A DNA stretch of 37,024 bases from the IMG/VR virus record IMGVR_UViG_3300009285_004575, positions 1-37,024 of that record; one strand, given 5' to 3'. How positions within the stretch are numbered: the stretch's first letter is position 1; every line of letters starts with the position of its first letter. The notes under the pieces were generated by a model that ran no database searches, had not been told where the DNA came from, and worked only from the letters and a program-made list of their open reading frames with translations. Both the position numbers and the translations under genes were made by a program. Positions 1,654 through 21,491 of the stretch are shown piece by piece. This stretch comes from a virus.

Positions 1654-1860
1654 ATGACAACAGACAATATAAATCATCCGCCACATTACAAATCAAACGG
1701 TATGGAAGCTATTGACGTGATAGAGGCGTTTGGTCTTGGATTTCATCTTGGTAATGCCATGAAATACATTCTTAGAGCTGGCAGAAAAACAGAAGACGAT
1801 ACGGAAGATACAAAAAAGGCTATTTGGTATTTAAATCGTTATTTAGGAGAAAAACAGTGA
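1654..1860 (+). CDS. DUF3310 phage protein
   Basis: The product has 68 residues. It carries the DUF3310 pattern seen in many phages: an N-terminal NHPPHYKSNGMEAIDVIEAF block, the G--GNAMKYILRAG core, and a KKAIWYLNRYL helix near the end. Members are short phage proteins sometimes annotated as nucleotide kinase-like, but that activity is not established for most. It lies directly upstream of thyX, whose GTG start overlaps its stop (1857-1860), so an association with nucleotide metabolism is a reasonable inference. Confidence 0.85.
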   Translation: MTTDNINHPPHYKSNGMEAIDVIEAFGLGFHLGNAMKYILRAGRKTEDDTEDTKKAIWYLNRYLGEKQ

Positions 1861-3395
1861 AAATAATTAAACCGTCAATTGAAATTTTAGACGTATTAGA
1901 CCAAACCACTATTTTGAAAAGATTGGAATTAGTTGGAAGGACTTGCTATAAATCAGAAGATAAAATAACCGATAATTCTTGTGTTGAGTTTATCAGAAAG
2001 ATTATTAAGTCTGGACACCATTCCATAATTGAACATTACGATATTTCGGTTAGAGTAATATGTGATAGGGGCGTTACCCACGAAATAGTTAGACATAGAA
2101 TAGCCAGCTATGCTCAGGAATCTACACGATATTGTATATCGGGAGACATGGGTTTATCTTTTAAAAATCCTCATCAAAAATTTACTGTGAGCCAACTTTA
2201 TAACAATCGAATTAACTCAAAAAATAATTCGTGGAAAAGAATGTTTATTAAACAACTTAACGAAGACACCGGATATATCACTTTTGACAAAATAAAAAAT
2301 ATTGTTTATACAGGATTTAAAGAGGTAGTAAAAATTACTACTTCTCTTGGGTATTCTCTTATTGTTACGCCAGATCATAGAATAAAAACCAGTTATGGAT
2401 ATGCAAGGGCAGACAGTTTAGCGGGAAGGGAGATAGCTGTAAATGGAATTGGAATTTGTACAACAAAACATGCCTACCAAGATAAAGATTGGCTTAAATA
2501 TCACTATATTGTGTTAAACAAAACAGCAGTACAAATTGCCAATGATTTAAAAGCTAGTACCTCTGCCGTTAAGAAATGGATAAGATTGCATGGCTTTGCG
2601 AATACTAAACCAAAAAGCTATTGGAATAAGGGAAGAAAACCCTGGAATAAAGGACTTACCGAAAGCAATGATATAAGAATCAAAAAACAAGGAGATGCCC
2701 TACGAAAATTCGGATATAGAAAAGGAGAAAAAAAAAGACAGAAAACAATATCTATAAGAACTTATCATAAAACCGTAAAAGATAAATGTGTTTTGTGTGG
2801 AGGTTGTTTATCCCTTCATGTTCACCACAAAAACAGCAACAGGATGGATAATTGTACTGACAATTTGATAACCTTATGCCCCTCTTGTCATGGGGGTGTC
2901 CATAATAAAAATCTATCATTTGTATATTTTGATAAAGTAGTATCCATAGAAAAATTGCCTAATACTATTCCTGTTTATGATATTGAGATGGGAGGGCAAT
3001 ATCATAATTTTGTAGCAAACGGTGTGGTTGTGCATAACTGTAATTATGCAAGCGGTAAATTTGGAAATGAAATCACTGTTATTGAACCTTGTTTTTGGAA
3101 TATAGATAACGATGAAAAGATGTTAGTATGGGAATTAGTCATAAAAGCCTCAGAAGCCGCATATCTCAAACTTATAGAACTTGGAGCAACTCCACAAGAA
3201 GCGAGGAGTGTGCTTCCAAATTCTTTGAAAACAGAAATAATTGTTAAATTCAATCTTCGAGAATGGAGACATTTCTTAACTTTGAGAACTTCTAGGGCTG
3301 CTCATCCACAAATGAGAGAAGTGACAAACATGATACTAACAGAGTTTAAATCAAAATTACCAATTATTTTTGAGGATATATCCAATGAAAATTAA
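1857..3395 (+). CDS. thyX: Flavin-dependent thymidylate synthase ThyX, interrupted by an HNH intein
   Basis: The start is GTG 1857, preceded by AGGAGA at 1845-1850; the frame gives 512 residues. Removing residues 93-394 leaves 210, a normal ThyX length. The extein carries the ThyX signature RHRIASYAQESTR (residues 79-91) and the later WRHFLTLRTS...AHPQMREV block. ThyX makes dTMP from dUMP using FAD, NADPH and methylenetetrahydrofolate. The intein sits right after the signature: the extein reads ESTRY then, after splicing, CNYASGKFGNE. The gene follows DUF3310 and its stop overlaps the ATPase gene start. Phages often carry thyX to make dTMP independently of the host. Confidence 0.93.
   Translation: MKIIKPSIEILDVLDQTTILKRLELVGRTCYKSEDKITDNSCVEFIRKIIKSGHHSIIEHYDISVRVICDRGVTHEIVRHRIASYAQESTRYCISGDMGLSFKNPHQKFTVSQLYNNRINSKNNSWKRMFIKQLNEDTGYITFDKIKNIVYTGFKEVVKITTSLGYSLIVTPDHRIKTSYGYARADSLAGREIAVNGIGICTTKHAYQDKDWLKYHYIVLNKTAVQIANDLKASTSAVKKWIRLHGFANTKPKSYWNKGRKPWNKGLTESNDIRIKKQGDALRKFGYRKGEKKRQKTISIRTYHKTVKDKCVLCGGCLSLHVHHKNSNRMDNCTDNLITLCPSCHGGVHNKNLSFVYFDKVVSIEKLPNTIPVYDIEMGGQYHNFVANGVVVHNCNYASGKFGNEITVIEPCFWNIDNDEKMLVWELVIKASEAAYLKLIELGATPQEARSVLPNSLKTEIIVKFNLREWRHFLTLRTSRAAHPQMREVTNMILTEFKSKLPIIFEDISNEN
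2133..3038 (+). mobile_element. Intein with HNH homing endonuclease in ThyX (302 aa)
   Basis: The intein begins with Cys (TGT 2133) and ends with His-Asn (CAT AAC 3033-3038), followed by Cys as the +1 residue. A splicing block B is visible as IVTPDHRIKTSYG, and block F as VYDIEMGGQYHNFVANG then VVVHN. All residues for class 1 splicing are present: Cys1, the block B Thr/His, penultimate His, terminal Asn and Cys+1. The inserted nuclease domain has paired Cys and HVHHKNSNRMDN followed by CPSCHGG, an HNH motif with a zinc-binding pair. A helix-turn-helix and NUMOD-like stretch (IANDLKASTSAVKKWI, then NKGRKPWNKGL) probably recognises DNA. Both splicing and homing look intact. Confidence 0.93.
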
Positions 3396-8641: not shown

Positions 8642-8646
8642 AAATG

Positions 8647-8956
8647 GCTAAACGTCTTTATGTCTTTATGACTTTATGTCTTTATGTCTTTATGGCTGTA
8701 CAAAGGGATGGAAATCAAAAATTTTCATCCGTTTATATGGCTAAACGTCTTTATGTCTTTATGACTTTATGTCTATATGACCGAATGGTCAAATGTCTTT
8801 ATGACTTTATGGCTAGTATAAAGGGATGCTAGAAACGTGTAACGTAGTAAGGAAAATTTTTTCCTGTGTTTTTGTTAAATAAGTTGATAATGGCTAAATG
8901 ACTGTATGGCTGTATGACTATGTGGCTAAATGACTAAATGGCTAAATGACTAAAAA
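8647..8956. repeat. Arrays of a degenerate 8-bp repeat, consensus DCTNNATG
   Basis: Three blocks share an 8-bp period. Block 1 is 8647-8702 with units such as GCTAAACG, TCTTTATG and ACTTTATG. Block 2 is 8740-8811 with the same units plus TCTATATG and ACCGAATG. Block 3 is 8893-8956 and alternates GCTNNATG with ACTNNATG. Blocks 1 and 2 share a perfect 38-bp direct repeat (8644-8681 and 8737-8774), 93 bp apart. A hairpin, GGATGGAAAT with ATTTTCATCC (8707-8730), lies between them. An open frame of 64 codons (8638-8832) runs through the first two blocks but looks like a by-product of the repeat. Possible roles: iterons, a protein-binding array, or slippage-generated filler. Confidence 0.85.
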
Positions 8957-11501: not shown

Positions 11502-13439
11502 ATGAATTACGATAATTTTCTTACTCATAAAAAACAGCAAGGATCTAATCATGGATTTGATCCTACATTTGTTCCAGATTATTTGTTTGATTTTCAAAAA
11601 AGTTTGGTTGAATGGGCTGTAAATAAGGGTCGTAGTGCTATATTTTCTGATTGCGGCACAGGAAAAACTATTATGGAGCTTGTGTGGGCATACAACATAG
11701 TAAGAAAAACAAACAAAAATGTATTGATATTATCACCGCTGGCCGTCTCTTGGCAAACCGCAAAAGAAGCGGAAAAATTTGGAATTGAATGTAAGGTATC
11801 AAGGGATGGTAAAATTAACAGCAAAATAACAATTACCAATTATGAACAATTACATAAGTTTGAACCGTCTGATTTTGTCGGTATTGTATGTGATGAGAGT
11901 GGAATATTAAAATCGTTTAAAGGTGCATTAAGAAAAGAAATAACAATATTCATGCGTAAAATTGAATATAGATTATTAGCTACGGCAACGCCAGCTCCGA
12001 ACGATTATATTGAATTGGGAACTTCGTCTGAAGCCTTGGGATATCTAGGTGCAATGGATATGTTAAATAAATTTTTCAAAAACGATCAACACAATAGCAA
12101 AGTGGGAAGATATAGAGGACAAGAAGTTAAATGGAGATTGAAAGGTCATGCAGAATTACCTTTTTGGAGATGGATATGTTCTTGGGCTAAAGCAATGAGA
12201 AAACCATCTGATTTAGGTTTTGACGATAATGGATTTATATTGCCAGAATTAATAATTAATCAAACCGTTGTAAAATCTAATAGTCTTCCTAAGGGTAAAT
12301 TATTTTCTATGCCAGCGATAACACTACAAGAACAAAGAGAAGAAAGAAGAAGAACTATAATGGAAAGATGTGAGATGGTCGCCAGCAAGGTCAATACTGG
12401 TAAACAAGCATTGGTTTGGTGTCATTTAAACGACGAAGGAGACTTGTTAGAAGCACTTATTCCTAATTCAATACAAGTAAAAGGGTCTGATTCTGTTGAA
12501 TGGAAAGAAGCAGCGGCTGAATGGTTCGTTGGAAATAAATGTATTTGCAATGATAATATGTTTCGTGCTAAACTTTTAGCATGGAAAAGAGAAAAACAAA
12601 TCTTGAATACCATCGCCGATACTATCAAGAACATCGAGAGGAACGATTGCGTCAATCCATCGAATACCAGCGAGCACATAAAGTTGAACGAAAATCTTAT
12701 CTATCAGAATATTACAAACACAACAGGGGGAAATGGGTGCGGACACAAAAACAAAAGGATGAAAGAAATAGAAGACGACGAGAGCGATATGCAAATGACG
12801 AAAAATTTCGTCTCGCTAAAATTGAAGAATCAAAAGAAACAAGAAGAAAAAACCCAGACACTCGGCTCAAATATTGTCTTAAAAAATATGGTGTGTCCAT
12901 CGAAGAATATCGAAAACTTGAATCAAAAGGATGCGCAATCTGCGGAAGAAAAGAAAACGGAGATATTCGAGGACACCGATTCCACATCGATCACTCCCAC
13001 GATACTGGAAAATTCAGAGGGGTACTGTGTACAGGATGCAATCAAGGACTCGGAAAGTTTGGTGACGACCCTAAACGGCTCGAAAATGCCGCCATGTATC
13101 TGCGGGCATAAGACAGGACGTCGCATCCTCATAAGCAAGCCTGTCATGTTTGGGTATGGCTTAAATTTCCAATGCTGTAATTATATGGTTTTATTCCCTT
13201 CCCATAGTTACGAACAATATTATCAAGTAATCCGCCGGTGTTGGCGTTTCGGACAAAAAAATCCAGTAACAGTAGATATTATAACAACGGAAGGGGAGTC
13301 AAGAATTATAAACAATTTACAAAGAAAATCTAAACAAGCTGATGAAATGTTTGAAAGATTAATTAGCGAAATGAATCATGTGTTAAATATAAATCGAATG
13401 GAAGAATATTCACAAAAAATAATACTTCCTAATTTCTAA
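11502..13439 (+). CDS. SNF2-type DNA helicase (phage), with in-frame insertion
   Basis: The product has 645 residues. Helicase motifs are visible: Walker A SDCGTGKT (49-56), motif II DESG (131-134), motif III LLATATP (158-164), and the C-terminal block LISKPVMFGYGLNFQ followed by EQYYQVIRRCWRFGQ (motif VI, about 572-584). SNF2-like phage helicases translocate on DNA and are thought to act in replication or recombination. Residues about 347-531 are not helicase-like: they are the read-through of a 555-bp insertion that encodes an HNH endonuclease in another frame. The insertion keeps the helicase frame open and is bounded by TGTATTTGC (12540-12548) and TGTATCTGC (13095-13103). There is no Shine-Dalgarno site before ATG 11502. 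Activity with the 185-residue insert is uncertain. Confidence 0.82.
   Translation: MNYDNFLTHKKQQGSNHGFDPTFVPDYLFDFQKSLVEWAVNKGRSAIFSDCGTGKTIMELVWAYNIVRKTNKNVLILSPLAVSWQTAKEAEKFGIECKVSRDGKINSKITITNYEQLHKFEPSDFVGIVCDESGILKSFKGALRKEITIFMRKIEYRLLATATPAPNDYIELGTSSEALGYLGAMDMLNKFFKNDQHNSKVGRYRGQEVKWRLKGHAELPFWRWICSWAKAMRKPSDLGFDDNGFILPELIINQTVVKSNSLPKGKLFSMPAITLQEQREERRRTIMERCEMVASKVNTGKQALVWCHLNDEGDLLEALIPNSIQVKGSDSVEWKEAAAEWFVGNKCICNDNMFRAKLLAWKREKQILNTIADTIKNIERNDCVNPSNTSEHIKLNENLIYQNITNTTGGNGCGHKNKRMKEIEDDESDMQMTKNFVSLKLKNQKKQEEKTQTLGSNIVLKNMVCPSKNIENLNQKDAQSAEEKKTEIFEDTDSTSITPTILENSEGYCVQDAIKDSESLVTTLNGSKMPPCICGHKTGRRILISKPVMFGYGLNFQCCNYMVLFPSHSYEQYYQVIRRCWRFGQKNPVTVDIITTEGESRIINNLQRKSKQADEMFERLISEMNHVLNINRMEEYSQKIILPNF
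12581..13111 (+). CDS. HNH/endonuclease VII-like homing endonuclease nested in helicase gene
   Basis: The product has 176 residues, in a different frame from the helicase and wholly inside it. The N-terminal two thirds are very basic and helical (HREERLRQSIEY; KDERNRRRRERY). The C-terminal domain reads CAICGRKENGD (C118, C121), FHIDHSHDTGKFRGVLC (D137, H138, C150), then CNQGLGKFGDDPKRLENA, the endonuclease VII/HNH fold with its zinc ribbon. Free-standing members cut DNA and spread by homing. No ribosome site is obvious at ATG 12581, so expression level is unknown. The stop lies eight bases past the right boundary repeat, so the last codons overlap conserved helicase sequence. Confidence 0.85.
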   Translation: MEKRKTNLEYHRRYYQEHREERLRQSIEYQRAHKVERKSYLSEYYKHNRGKWVRTQKQKDERNRRRRERYANDEKFRLAKIEESKETRRKNPDTRLKYCLKKYGVSIEEYRKLESKGCAICGRKENGDIRGHRFHIDHSHDTGKFRGVLCTGCNQGLGKFGDDPKRLENAAMYLRA

Positions 13440-13460: not shown

Positions 13461-14474
13461 GTGACAGTTAAAGATCAGGTAATAACAAGTAATTATGCAA
13501 TATACAATGGAGATGCTGTAGAAGTATTAAAAACACTACAAAGCAATTCTATTCACTTCTCTGTATACTCTCCTCCGTTTGCTACTGGCGGTGGCGGGCT
13601 TTATACTTATTCAAGCCACGAAAGAGACCTTTCTAATTGCGATAGTTACGAACAATTTTTTGAACATTACGCTTTTGTCGTAGAAGAAATAGCAAGATTA
13701 ACATTACCTGGAAGATGTTCTGTCGTGCATTGTATGGATGTGCCGAAAAGTAATTCCGGTAATGATCTATTGAGGGATTTTCCAGGAGATATAATCAGAT
13801 TACACGAAAAATATGGATTTGGATATGCGGCAAGACACTGTATTTGGAAAGAACCATTAGGGGTAAGATTGAGAACTATGCAAAAAAATTTAGCGCACAA
13901 AACATTAGTAGAAGATTCTATTGCATGTGGAGTGGCATCTGCTGACTACTTGTTAGTTTTTACGAAAAAAGGCAAGAATCAAATACCCATATCTCACCCA
14001 ACCGGATTAAGTAATTATGCTGGAGAAAAGCCAATACCTTCCAACATATTACAATACAAGGGATATACTGGTAAACAGACAGAAAATTCATACTCGCATT
14101 GGATGTGGCGACAATACGCTTCTTCTATGTGGGACGATATAAGACTTGAAAGAACATTGCCATATAAAGAAGCAAGAGACAGCGAAGACGAAAAACACGT
14201 ACATCCATTACAATTAGATGTTATTGAAAGATGCGTTGTTTTAAGGTCTAATATAGACGAAGTCGTGTTGACACCATTTATGGGAGTTGGAAGCGAATGT
14301 TATGGTGCTATTATTAATGGCAGAAAAGCCATAGGAATCGAATTGAAACCATCTTATTACAGACAAGCCGTTAAAAATATGGAATTAGCTAAAAACGAAA
14401 AAACATTACAGAAAAAACTATTCAACGAAAACAATACCTTACTATCATTGATGAGTGAGGAAAAATCGGAATAA
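13461..14474 (+). CDS. DNA N4-cytosine/N6-adenine methyltransferase
   Basis: GTG start 13461 with GAGGAGGT upstream; 337 residues. The catalytic motif is SPPF (37-40), just after a possible GDAVEVLKTL segment. The SAM-binding motif FMGVG (273-277) is near the end, followed by AIGIELKPSYYRQA. This order (catalytic motif first) is that of beta-class DNA methyltransferases. SPPF/Y is seen in both N4-cytosine and N6-adenine enzymes, so the target base is not settled. No restriction nuclease is adjacent; phage orphan methyltransferases usually protect the genome against host restriction. Confidence 0.85.
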   Translation: MTVKDQVITSNYAIYNGDAVEVLKTLQSNSIHFSVYSPPFATGGGGLYTYSSHERDLSNCDSYEQFFEHYAFVVEEIARLTLPGRCSVVHCMDVPKSNSGNDLLRDFPGDIIRLHEKYGFGYAARHCIWKEPLGVRLRTMQKNLAHKTLVEDSIACGVASADYLLVFTKKGKNQIPISHPTGLSNYAGEKPIPSNILQYKGYTGKQTENSYSHWMWRQYASSMWDDIRLERTLPYKEARDSEDEKHVHPLQLDVIERCVVLRSNIDEVVLTPFMGVGSECYGAIINGRKAIGIELKPSYYRQAVKNMELAKNEKTLQKKLFNENNTLLSLMSEEKSE

Positions 14475-14476
14475 TA

Positions 14477-17182
14477 ATGGAAATCTCGAACAAAATCCCA
14501 TTTTCTAATCCTAAATTTAAAAAAGGATTAACACCGCTACAGCACAAAACCGTCACGGACGTGCTATCAAGCAGAAAAACAATAACGATGATTAATGCTC
14601 CCACCGGATTCGGGAAGACTCCGACAGCTATGACCCTTGCCCACCATATAAACTACCCGAACCAATCTCTATATCTTTGTAGTTCTAAAATTTTACAAGA
14701 TCAATTGGCTGGGGATTTTACAGAAGCGTATCAATTAAAAGGGCGGGGAAATTATCCGTGCACACTTCTACCCACCTATAATGCAGACCGATGCTTCCAA
14801 CAATGCGATGAATATAAGTGCGGTGAAATTTCATGCGCTTATGAAGATGCGAAAAAAGAAGCCTTATCATCAACTTTTACCATTCTCAACATGCACTATT
14901 ACGAGACCGAAACGAATTTTGTCGGTAGATTTTCAAAGCGTAAAACCGTAATAATTGACGAGGCAGATGTATTAGAAGATATTTTGATAGATTTTATCGC
15001 ACTAGACGTCCATCCGAAAACATTGGAAAAATTCAAGCTGGATCAGCCCAAATATGTGACTAAGTTAGATTCATGGAAGGAATGGGCGGATAAAACATTA
15101 AAAATATTAGAAGAAAAAGTTAAAAAGCTAAGAGCCGCCGAAGACCACTTGGATAGAGAATCAAAATTAGAACTAAGTAAATTGTTGAGAATGTGTCTGA
15201 AATTAAATATGCTAAAAAACGATATAACGGAAGAGTGGATATTCGACCATGCCGAAAAATTTCGCTTTCAACCTCTCTGGCTAGACACAAAACTTACCCA
15301 ACAATATTTACTCAAACATGCGGAAAGATTCGTTATGATGTCTGCGACCATGCTCCCGAAAGTTATAGCGTGTAAATTATTGGGATTAGATATTAACGAT
15401 GTGGATTATCACGAGATAGATTCACCTATACCCGTAGCGAATCGTCCCATTGTTTATAAGCCAATTAAAAAGCTAAAATACGGTGAATCAGAAGAAGATG
15501 TTTATAATGAAATTAAAAGATTGATAGAAGGGTACAAAGGAATTAAAGGGATTATTCATGCTGTGAGCTATACCCGTGCAAAGGCAATAGCAGGACTGGA
15601 CAAGCGTTGCATCACTCATAATACCTACGATAAAAACGAAAAAATAAAACAATTCATAGACTCAAAAGATGGGATATTGGTAAGCCCATCGTGTGATCGT
15701 GGACTTGACCTGCACGGCGATCTAGCAAGATTCTGTATAATTCCAAAAGTTCCGTTCCCGAACACAACGGACAAGGTGGTCTCCAAGCGTTTGTACAGCT
15801 CTCCCTTTGGTAGGGTATGGTACAGGGCTGTAACGGCGCAAACCATTGTTCAGATGGCGGGGCGTACTACTCGATGTTTTAGCACAGACACAGAAATCTT
15901 AACGATACATGGATGGAAAAAATACAACGAAGTAAATATGCACGATAAAACTTATTGTATTGATCAGAAATCTTTTAACAATAAAACTAAACGTCCAGTT
16001 ATGGAGGGTTCTTCGATATTAGTAGAAGGAGAAATAGAGGATGTCTATACATCAGATAAAGAAGAAAAAGTTATTAATATTAAAAATCAAAACATTGATG
16101 CTTTAGTTACTCAAGACCACGACATGATTGTTCAAATGAGAAAACAGAAAACTTATAGGGGGAAGTATAAAAAACCTTATGGAGTTTATGATTGGAAATA
16201 CTGTCATCGTACAAATAGTCATGGATTAGAAAAAATAAAAGCATCTAAATTACCAGACAGATTTAAAATACCACTAGCAGGAAAAATTATACGCAAAAAC
16301 AAATCTCGTGCTAAAAAAGAATGGTTCTGGCTGATAGGTTTCATAATAGGGGATGGACATATTCATAAAAACAAAAACGTCGTAACAATACATCAATCGG
16401 AAACCAACATAGACTTAATAGAAAAAATCAGAAAAGTTCTTGGTATACTTAAAATAGAATATTCAGAATACAGACGACAAGTAAAAGGAACAAAAATAAA
16501 TTTAAACGATAAGGAGTATTCAAGAAAAGAAGATATGATAAATTTTCAAATAACGGGTAAGTCTTCTTCGATGATTAGGGATATGTTTAATAATGGCAAA
16601 AGAAGAAGGTATTCAAAAACAGTAACATACGTACAAAGAACTCACTTTTCTTTTAGTAAAAAAATAGGGGGAAAGCATAAAATAGATGGGTGGAAAGAAG
16701 TGGAAAAAATCATACCAAGATGGTGTCTGGAGAAGGGGTCGAAATCCCAACTTATTAAATTAATTCATGGTTTGGTTGACAGCGACGGAAGCTGGAAAAA
16801 AACTAATGGTAAATATAATAAAAACGTTGGAGGTTTTTACAACAAAAATAAAATCATAATAGATGCTTTTCAGGAGTTGTGCGTATTGACAGGATATAGA
16901 AGTTTGATTCGTAACAGAAGGAATCAATACGAAGTTTCCTTTTGTTGTCCCTCCATGATTGACTGTACGAAAAATAATGATGTAAAAGACGGAGGGATGT
17001 CTAAGGTGTGGTGTGTTAAAACAAATCATGGAAATGTTATAATGAGGAGAAATGGTAAACCTTTTTTGTGTGGAAACAGTGCCAGCGACTTTTCCACTGT
17101 TCATATACTGGACGCTGCTTTTGATTCGGTCGTAGAATTTGTCCCGAAATGGTTTCGAGATGCAATCAAGGTTGAATTTTAG
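14477..17182 (+). CDS. XPD/DinG-like helicase interrupted by a LAGLIDADG intein
   Basis: The frame gives 901 residues; without the intein the helicase has 500. Walker A is APTGFGKT (41-48) and motif II is DEAD (161-164). Between them lie C95, C106, C110, C115 and C120, placed where XPD-family enzymes hold a [4Fe-4S] cluster. Motif III is MMSAT and motif VI is QMAGRTTR, where the intein is inserted. Such helicases unwind DNA 5' to 3' and are common in phages beside SNF2-like proteins. It starts two bases after the methyltransferase stop. Helicase activity requires splicing, because motif VI is separated from the C-terminal 34 residues. Confidence 0.88.
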   Translation: MEISNKIPFSNPKFKKGLTPLQHKTVTDVLSSRKTITMINAPTGFGKTPTAMTLAHHINYPNQSLYLCSSKILQDQLAGDFTEAYQLKGRGNYPCTLLPTYNADRCFQQCDEYKCGEISCAYEDAKKEALSSTFTILNMHYYETETNFVGRFSKRKTVIIDEADVLEDILIDFIALDVHPKTLEKFKLDQPKYVTKLDSWKEWADKTLKILEEKVKKLRAAEDHLDRESKLELSKLLRMCLKLNMLKNDITEEWIFDHAEKFRFQPLWLDTKLTQQYLLKHAERFVMMSATMLPKVIACKLLGLDINDVDYHEIDSPIPVANRPIVYKPIKKLKYGESEEDVYNEIKRLIEGYKGIKGIIHAVSYTRAKAIAGLDKRCITHNTYDKNEKIKQFIDSKDGILVSPSCDRGLDLHGDLARFCIIPKVPFPNTTDKVVSKRLYSSPFGRVWYRAVTAQTIVQMAGRTTRCFSTDTEILTIHGWKKYNEVNMHDKTYCIDQKSFNNKTKRPVMEGSSILVEGEIEDVYTSDKEEKVINIKNQNIDALVTQDHDMIVQMRKQKTYRGKYKKPYGVYDWKYCHRTNSHGLEKIKASKLPDRFKIPLAGKIIRKNKSRAKKEWFWLIGFIIGDGHIHKNKNVVTIHQSETNIDLIEKIRKVLGILKIEYSEYRRQVKGTKINLNDKEYSRKEDMINFQITGKSSSMIRDMFNNGKRRRYSKTVTYVQRTHFSFSKKIGGKHKIDGWKEVEKIIPRWCLEKGSKSQLIKLIHGLVDSDGSWKKTNGKYNKNVGGFYNKNKIIIDAFQELCVLTGYRSLIRNRRNQYEVSFCCPSMIDCTKNNDVKDGGMSKVWCVKTNHGNVIMRRNGKPFLCGNSASDFSTVHILDAAFDSVVEFVPKWFRDAIKVEF
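15875..17077 (+). mobile_element. Intein with LAGLIDADG homing endonuclease in the XPD-like helicase (401 aa)
   Basis: The intein starts with Cys (TGT 15875, residue 467: CFSTDTEILTIHGWKK) and ends GKPFLCGN, followed by Ser as the +1 residue. Block B is present as NIDALVTQDHDMIV. The endonuclease motifs are LIGFIIGDG and LIHGLVDSDG, the paired LAGLIDADG helices. The penultimate residue is Gly, not His, a known variant that can still splice. It interrupts the extein between QMAGRTTR and SASDFSTVHILDAAF, inside helicase motif VI, a conserved site typical for inteins. Confidence 0.93.
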
Positions 17183-19928: not shown

Positions 19929-21491
19929 ATGACAAGAGCTAACAACTTATCACAACTATTAGAAAATCCTTTCAATCCTTTTCCTTCGGCTATTTTCCCT
20001 CCCACCGACAGGCTTCACGATACCGAAAAACTAGAAGTAAAAGACGTTCCAGAGATTACTTTTTTTAGCATGTTAAATGAAGCAGGAACAGAAAGTATAA
20101 AAAAAGAGTATCCATTTCTTCGTGATTATCAGATACCGTCGGTCGCACTGAGCCAATCAATGAATAAATATGCCTTCTTCTGGCAAAAGGGACTGGGGAA
20201 AACCCTTCTTGGTACTATCATAGCAAAGGAAAAATCTACACAGGGAAAAGTTTTAATCGTTGTGAGGAAAATTACGATTCGCTCTTCTGGTGGTTGGATC
20301 GAACATTTTCACTGGATAGCTCCAAAACTTCTATATACTGACTTATGCGTTAACAAAAGCGGTAAAAAAGAAGAATTAATAGCAAGAAGAAATTTAATAG
20401 ATGTTCCGGTATATTTCATCAACCATGAGAAATTCAGATTGTATTGGGATGTTATTTGCAAAGGAATAGATACAGTTATTATAGACGAATCAAGTCTATT
20501 AAGAAATAACAAGTCTGGGCTTACTAGGGCTTTTATTAAGGCTGACCAAAAATACAATTTCAAAAATATTTATCCTCTTAGTGGTCTCCCCGCTCCTAAT
20601 AATCCACACGAATATTTCAACCAGATCAGATTAGTCGATAAAAATTTGCTCGGTACAAGTTTCGAACATTTCCTCTCTACTTATTTTAGGCATGCCAACA
20701 AGAAAAAGGGAGAAATCGGAACTTATATTCTGAAAAATCCTGAGCAATTCATGGAAAAGCTAAAGTCTGTCTCGATTTATGTTGACGGCAAAAAAGAAGA
20801 CCTTCCGAAAGAAATAGTTTCACCCGAATATTTTGAATTGAATGAAAAACAAAGAAAATATTATGACATTGTTATGAGCGATATACAAGATTATGTTCAA
20901 ACTCACAAAGACATGGCGATCCAATCACTTCTACCAGAAATAGCAAAGACGATAAAGGCGTTGGAGATTATTTGTGGCTTCTACATTAATAATACCGAAA
21001 ACAAGGTTGTTCTTGTTAAGACTGAACTCTATAACACTGTTTATGAATTTCTCCGAACCGTTCCGAAAGAAAAAGTATTGATCGGGTGTAATTTCGACAT
21101 TGAACAAAACATAATGGTTAATTATCTTGTGAGGCGTGGGCACTCCGTTGCGTTTATTACAGGCTCACATAGTGATAAGGAACGACAAAGCGCATTAAAT
21201 GCTTTTCTAAACGGCAACGTTCAATATTTAGTAGCAAAGATGAAGGTATTAAAATATAGTATTAATTTACCAACGATAGATTATTGCATAACTACTTCTC
21301 TGACTCATTCGTTTGATGATTACGATCAATTTAAGGGTAGAATTAAAAGAGCGACAGGTAATCAGGAGCATAGAACTGTTTTCCAAATACCGATGATTGC
21401 CGAGAATACTGTAGCCGAACCAATATTTAAGGCACTAGAAAACAAGGAAGATGTTTCGCAGGCTGTTTTAAATTATTTACTAAGAAATTAA
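19929..21491 (+). CDS. SNF2-family helicase/ATPase (second copy)
   Basis: The product has 520 residues. Walker A is WQKGLGKT (85-92), motif II DESS (186-189), and motif VI QFKGRIKRATG near residue 465. LSGLPAPNNPHEYFNQIRLV corresponds to motif III and the region after it. It differs from the helicase at 11502 in length and lacks an insertion. This type occurs in many phages as a DNA translocase of unclear role. It is the first gene after the promoter at 19776. There is no obvious ribosome site. Confidence 0.82.
   Translation: MTRANNLSQLLENPFNPFPSAIFPPTDRLHDTEKLEVKDVPEITFFSMLNEAGTESIKKEYPFLRDYQIPSVALSQSMNKYAFFWQKGLGKTLLGTIIAKEKSTQGKVLIVVRKITIRSSGGWIEHFHWIAPKLLYTDLCVNKSGKKEELIARRNLIDVPVYFINHEKFRLYWDVICKGIDTVIIDESSLLRNNKSGLTRAFIKADQKYNFKNIYPLSGLPAPNNPHEYFNQIRLVDKNLLGTSFEHFLSTYFRHANKKKGEIGTYILKNPEQFMEKLKSVSIYVDGKKEDLPKEIVSPEYFELNEKQRKYYDIVMSDIQDYVQTHKDMAIQSLLPEIAKTIKALEIICGFYINNTENKVVLVKTELYNTVYEFLRTVPKEKVLIGCNFDIEQNIMVNYLVRRGHSVAFITGSHSDKERQSALNAFLNGNVQYLVAKMKVLKYSINLPTIDYCITTSLTHSFDDYDQFKGRIKRATGNQEHRTVFQIPMIAENTVAEPIFKALENKEDVSQAVLNYLLRN

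Follow-up and report, generated by a model that had tools for sequence, protein, structure and literature searches.

The viral DNA that we analyzed (IMG/VR record IMGVR_UViG_3300009285_004575; 37,024 bases, hereafter the window) carries an HNH endonuclease gene inside a helicase gene, in a different reading frame, and over 21 distinct loci with this arrangement chance is excluded as the cause of the open helicase frame. Most probably, the insertion is a homing cassette that does not splice, with the helicase translated straight through it and the HNH protein translated separately. A homing gene that is neither intron nor intein and is read through by its host had been proposed in an earlier note on this DNA, and after comparison of relatives it is the best-supported reading.

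An HNH gene within a helicase gene

The SNF2/DEAD-like helicase frame spans positions 11502–13439 of the plus strand (645 amino acids [aa]) and stays open through an inserted cassette of about 579 bp (12540–13118, plus strand), whose ends, placed by alignment with homologs, are uncertain by about one codon. The HNH gene lies within the cassette on the same strand (12581–13111, 176 aa), at offset 2 from the helicase frame. Both frames are open where the earlier note had placed them, and its assignment of the helicase to the SNF2 type agrees with our AlphaFold model, for which the nearest solved folds are SNF2 remodelers. An N6/N4 DNA methylase gene, the usual neighbor or fusion partner of this helicase, follows on the plus strand (13461–14474); the order is the same in L002, L089, L090, L092, and L094. 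The window also contains a second SNF2-type helicase gene, apparently without an insertion (19929–21491); a ThyX thymidylate synthase gene with an Intein_splicing domain (1824–3395, E = 1e-15); and, two genes downstream of the hidden HNH, a DinG-like helicase gene (14477–17182, 901 aa) with a LAGLIDADG intein (CFSTDTEILT ... FLCGN/S). The phage therefore has two inteins besides the hidden HNH.

To place the insertion, we used 80 helicase loci from IMG/VR. One of these, L004 (3300025117_000058; 78,468 bases), is the same sequence as the window: 13,935 bp are identical, with the same insertion present, and the two may come from the same phage population. The window may thus belong to a larger genome. 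A blastn comparison against L004 also revealed two 43-bp stretches (8644–8686 and 8737–8779) that match each other at 97.7%. The insertion is missing from all 78 other homologs that span the site, confirming the proposal that it is real. The empty site falls between EWFVGNK and R(R)ILISKP (GNK/R(R)ILI, with the slash at the junction). The cassette lies in a helicase loop directly before the strand leading to motif V. At L005, what we first considered as a second insertion proved to be an uninserted helicase with a duplicated tail; here, part of the helicase gene end is repeated (2292–2751) beside a broken methylase start, possibly as an assembly chimera.

The boundaries had originally been drawn at two near-identical 9-mers, TGTATTTGC (12540–12548, plus strand) and TGTATCTGC (13095–13103, plus strand), with the prediction that homologs would join CIC directly to GH. 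The 9-mers exist and are 555 bp apart, but their match is at chance level, equaled in 41% of random 60-mer pairs, and the insertion measures about 579 bp rather than 555. The right copy is part of the codons for the HNH C-terminal MYLR, read in the helicase frame. The sequence CICGHKTG was absent from all uninserted homologs, and when we sought such homologs with the pattern CxCGHxSGRR, the matches were inserted loci only. Since no uninserted relative contains CICGHKTG, the predicted junction was not found.

These results also bear on a translational bypass of the T4 gene 60 type, which the earlier note had offered as an alternative. In such a bypass, the ribosome would hop between the 9-mers and skip the insert, and their in-phase spacing of 555 bp is in its favor. 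However, the match between the 9-mers is what chance provides, comparable repeats were not seen in nested relatives, joining the 9-mers would yield the CICGHKTG that no uninserted homolog contains, and hopping would exert no selection for an open host frame. We regard a bypass as extremely improbable.

The product of the nested gene matches the Endonuclease_7 profile (PF02945) with E = 3e-19 and 69 bits, above the cut-off of 23.6, and the structures PDB 3fc3 (5e-9) and 1e7d (6e-4). Residues with catalytic and zinc-binding roles (C118, C121, D137, H138, H140, C150, C153, and N154) are intact in the window, as expected of the complete HNH/endonuclease VII-like protein first described, and invariant in all 21 nested HNHs. 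Judging from these residues, the nested nucleases look functional. The window HNH has the nuclease core of PF02945 in common with T4 endonuclease VII and Hpy99I; the match is confined to its C-terminal residues 94–175, and its basic N-terminal half is unmatched.

What the helicase frame encodes within the insert is unlike a helicase domain, in agreement with the first description. The 185 residues between the 9-mers matched no Pfam family, and hydrophobic residues (VILMFYW) make up 24% of the insert versus 34% of the helicase core. When AlphaFold was run on the helicase with 57 homologs, both helicase halves were modeled well and insert residues 409–427 and 451–528 fell below a pLDDT of 50. 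Residues from about 351 to 410 were predicted to form a helix at moderate confidence (pLDDT 64–90), and the insert may therefore not be a plain disordered loop. Together, the model and the low hydrophobicity fit a loop that the helicase could tolerate.

The helicase frame is kept open across nested loci

A tblastn search with the HNH returned matches in two Gordonia phages, Malisha and Squiddly, in each case beneath a gene whose sole annotation is DNA helicase, and a profile search gave 80 HNH loci. From these, we chose nested loci by the presence of helicase homology on both sides of the HNH, ignoring reading frames. The helicase frame was open through the HNH in all 24 loci chosen in this way; with the window, there are 25 loci, 21 of them distinct. 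Two further candidates, L231 and L191, were set aside as their spanning frames, in high-GC DNA, are not helicases.

The insertions occupy two sites. Site A, which precedes the strand running into motif V, is used in the window, L127, L168–L173, and L176–L180. Site B, about 55 residues upstream of site A and before the PWLIWC strand, is used in Malisha, Squiddly, L174, L175, L181–L183, L186, L187, L189, L192, and L208. The phase also varies: the HNH is at offset 2 in 18 of the distinct loci and at offset 1 in three, and the host-frame peptides encoded at the offset-1 loci are entirely different. On a contig from a Myxococcota MAG (L127, 791–3709), a single helicase frame of 973 codons contains two insertions: an intein-like one near motif II and, at the same site as in the window, a hidden HNH. 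At L196 (3001–4822), a free-standing HNH of the same family is located directly upstream of an uninserted helicase.

An open second frame could simply be a by-product of composition: an HNH gene rich in K, R, and E codons might leave another frame open with no selection at all. We permuted synonymous codons within each HNH gene, preserving the protein and the codon counts. Across the 21 distinct loci, the host frame contained 0 stops versus 36.8 ± 4.5 expected, while the third frame of the same genes contained 179 stops versus 179.3 expected. Among 52 HNHs of this family that stand alone, the frame matching offset 2 had 361 stops versus 347 expected, and it was stop-free in only one of the 52. 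Taken singly, some loci are compatible with chance. The window has a p value of about 0.06, several high-GC loci have individual p values above 0.5, and L231 and L191 demonstrate that spanning frames do arise by chance outside helicases. In combination, the log10 of the product of p values is −22, although the loci are mutually related and hence not 21 fully independent trials, and the three offset-1 loci alone gave p values of 0.0003, <0.0003, and 0.01. Chance is excluded over the 21 distinct loci, and we give an unselected origin of the open frame next to no weight.

The peptide itself is another matter. Mean identity between loci was 0.284 for host-frame peptides and 0.294 for the third frame, indicating that the sequence of the loop is under no detectable selection. 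What is preserved is openness, not peptide content, and because the peptide is not conserved, it is the openness of the frame that argues for its retention in the helicase.

Embedded HNH genes have precedents in phages, among them Aeh1 mobE (PMC3014915), and by analogy the helicase might be broken into two separately translated pieces whose joint frame goes unused. A split gene would not avoid stops within its insert, and the helicase frame is without a stop across all 25 loci. We consider a split unlikely. The cassette consists of a whole number of codons and lacks host-frame stops, from which it follows that ribosomes translating the helicase would read through it. The helicase would then retain a flexible, low-complexity loop of about 190 residues and presumably remain functional.

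The nested loci are also scattered among helicases. We built a tree of 88 helicases from which the insert had been removed beforehand. Inserted and empty helicases interleave on this tree, with 10 changes, at least eight of them forced by starred branches, versus a mean of 18 after shuffling. Given two phases and a patchy tree, a single event does not explain the nested loci. On the HNH tree, sequences from sites A and B are mostly apart, with the site-A loci L176 and L177 among the site-B sequences, at weak branch support. This pattern fits site-preferring nucleases that move horizontally, and repeated loss fits the distribution equally well. The patchy distribution suggests homing, in which the HNH would cut uninserted helicase alleles and the cassette would be copied in by repair.

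Splicing and expression of the nested gene

HNH genes of phages are often located in group I introns. The insertion here is exact and patchy in distribution, as such an intron would be, and the earlier note had raised splicing of an intron as a further possibility; the mRNA would lose the insert, making the openness of the host frame incidental. However, an Rfam search of the window and 20 nested loci detected no family of any kind at threshold, the HNH gene takes up all but about 48 nt of the insert, and the insert RNA folds no better than shuffled sequences (z = −0.8). Moreover, splicing would not select against host-frame stops and so leaves unexplained why there are 0 rather than 36.8. A self-splicing intron is thus quite unlikely, slightly more so than a split gene. 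We also considered the GTGCTAAACT block 5′ of the HNH as an intron core, based on a likeness to T4 td, and rejected it, as it had no Rfam match and too little room.

Removal of the host-frame segment after translation, by an intein-like element that has gone unrecognized, would account for an open, in-frame insertion, and inteins do occur in this helicase (in L127) and elsewhere in the window. Yet no intein (Hint splicing) domain was matched by Pfam in the helicase frame. The host-frame peptides, with the identities given above and with entirely different sequences at the offset-1 loci, are unconserved between loci, such that no conserved splicing domain can form. Protein splicing is therefore very unlikely, still less probable than an intron.

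In the reading that we favor, an endonuclease-VII-type HNH gene with short flanks occupies a loop of the phage helicase and does not splice, and the HNH would be expressed on its own. No Shine-Dalgarno-like sequence is evident before the HNH ATG in the window. There is a candidate extended −10 box, TGCTAAACT (12566–12574, plus strand), in which TAAACT ends 6 nt 5′ of the ATG, a spacing suited to a leaderless start. In leaderless bacterial genes, a TANNNT signal is found about 12 bp upstream (PMC3160421). TAAACT is present 6 nt before the HNH start in the window, Malisha, L168, L186, and L187, and TAAATT in L176 and L177. Overall, TANNNT lies 4–10 nt upstream of the start in seven of 21 loci versus 0.6 expected, for a motif chosen after being seen, and is missing from the other 14. 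Among 28 unrelated IMG/VR matches to GTGCTAAACTNNNNNCATGG, 16 have an ORF of at least 57 codons that begins at that ATG. The Rfam result, the lack of room and the frequency with which these IMG/VR matches start ORFs at that ATG make a −10 box likelier than an intron core. The HNH would probably be translated independently, and its start may be leaderless, with a −10 box of its own just upstream.

In long transcripts, an 11-bp RNA hairpin (12561–12586, plus strand; z = −3.8) is predicted to occlude the start codon of the HNH. It was seen in the window only and was not conserved in eight relatives. T4 I-TevI has a hairpin that keeps its early and middle transcripts from being translated (PMC3014915); the window hairpin resembles it in the predicted burial of the HNH start within the long helicase transcript.

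Implications and relation to known systems

The usual view is that a homing gene can survive in a core gene only with the help of splicing or of an intergenic gap. On balance, and with less assurance than we attach to the non-splicing cassette itself, we think it probable that homing by read-through is a general way of life, the third after introns and inteins, in which widespread dual-coding endonuclease-VII cassettes have invaded one helicase repeatedly, using two sites and two phases, and may bring a promoter and leaderless start of their own. If this is true, one stretch of DNA expresses both host and parasite. Selection across the 21 distinct loci to hold the host frame open through an entire nuclease gene makes a testable class of a curiosity described in 2025 in phage methylases, and it offers a clear example from nature of overlapping frames under selection. 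For annotation, the warning is that such helicases conceal a second gene. Because Gordonia terrae served as the isolation host for Malisha and Squiddly, the question can be taken to the bench.

Like the HNH genes of group I introns and the LAGLIDADG inteins, the window cassette is a selfish nuclease gene that resides in a conserved host-phage gene. Those elements excise by RNA or protein splicing; in the window cassette, we found no splicing element. Homing genes that sit in phage genes without an intron include Aeh1 mobE in nrdA and T4 mobA with the gene 60 bypass. The mobE gene splits nrdA and the mobA arrangement relies on the bypass, whereas the host frame of the window runs through.

The closest counterpart is the ShiLan domain, in which a mycobacteriophage methylase gene with an open host frame harbors an HNH out of frame (Arsenault, Gosselin and Gogarten, Genes 2025, PMC11855218). 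The authors described it as being no intein and no intron, and they reported another instance in Pacc40 gp60 (PMC11855218); Applejack provides a further methylase case (PMC12613952). ShiLan and the window have in common an HNH in another frame of a phage gene for a DNA enzyme, an open host frame, no detected intron or intein, a patchy distribution, and a proposal of leaderless translation. By the features that define the ShiLan type, the window has uninserted homologs, a stop-free host frame, an HNH in an alternate frame, neither intein nor intron, and patchy occurrence; the nuclease lineage differs. The ShiLan host gene is a methylase unrelated to the window helicase, and gp65 has no similarity to the helicase. 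The window HNH had no match in the ShiLan or Pacc40 locus at E 1e-3, indicating the same kind of arrangement rather than the same element, and endonuclease VII is unmentioned in the main text of PMC11855218.

Pacc40 gp60 is nearer in its host gene. The published description is of a methylase that conceals an HNH; the protein is a helicase-methylase fusion (L246, 1102–5127) with the insertion in the helicase part. It has an out-of-frame nuclease and an open host frame in the same helicase family and is 64–70% identical to L182. It differs from the nested loci described here in its insertion site, a third one between RPSDI and GYDLPPL, and in its nuclease, which is 160 aa long with HNH/AP2-type matches (PMC11855218).

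The kind of arrangement found in the window is therefore already published. In comparison with ShiLan, the nuclease here is of the endonuclease VII type and the host is a helicase. Our analysis adds this second nuclease family and two further insertion sites. It also extends the arrangement to two phases and to 21 distinct loci that cover a wide range of GC content, and with the test for stop avoidance it shows quantitatively that stops are kept out of the host frame.
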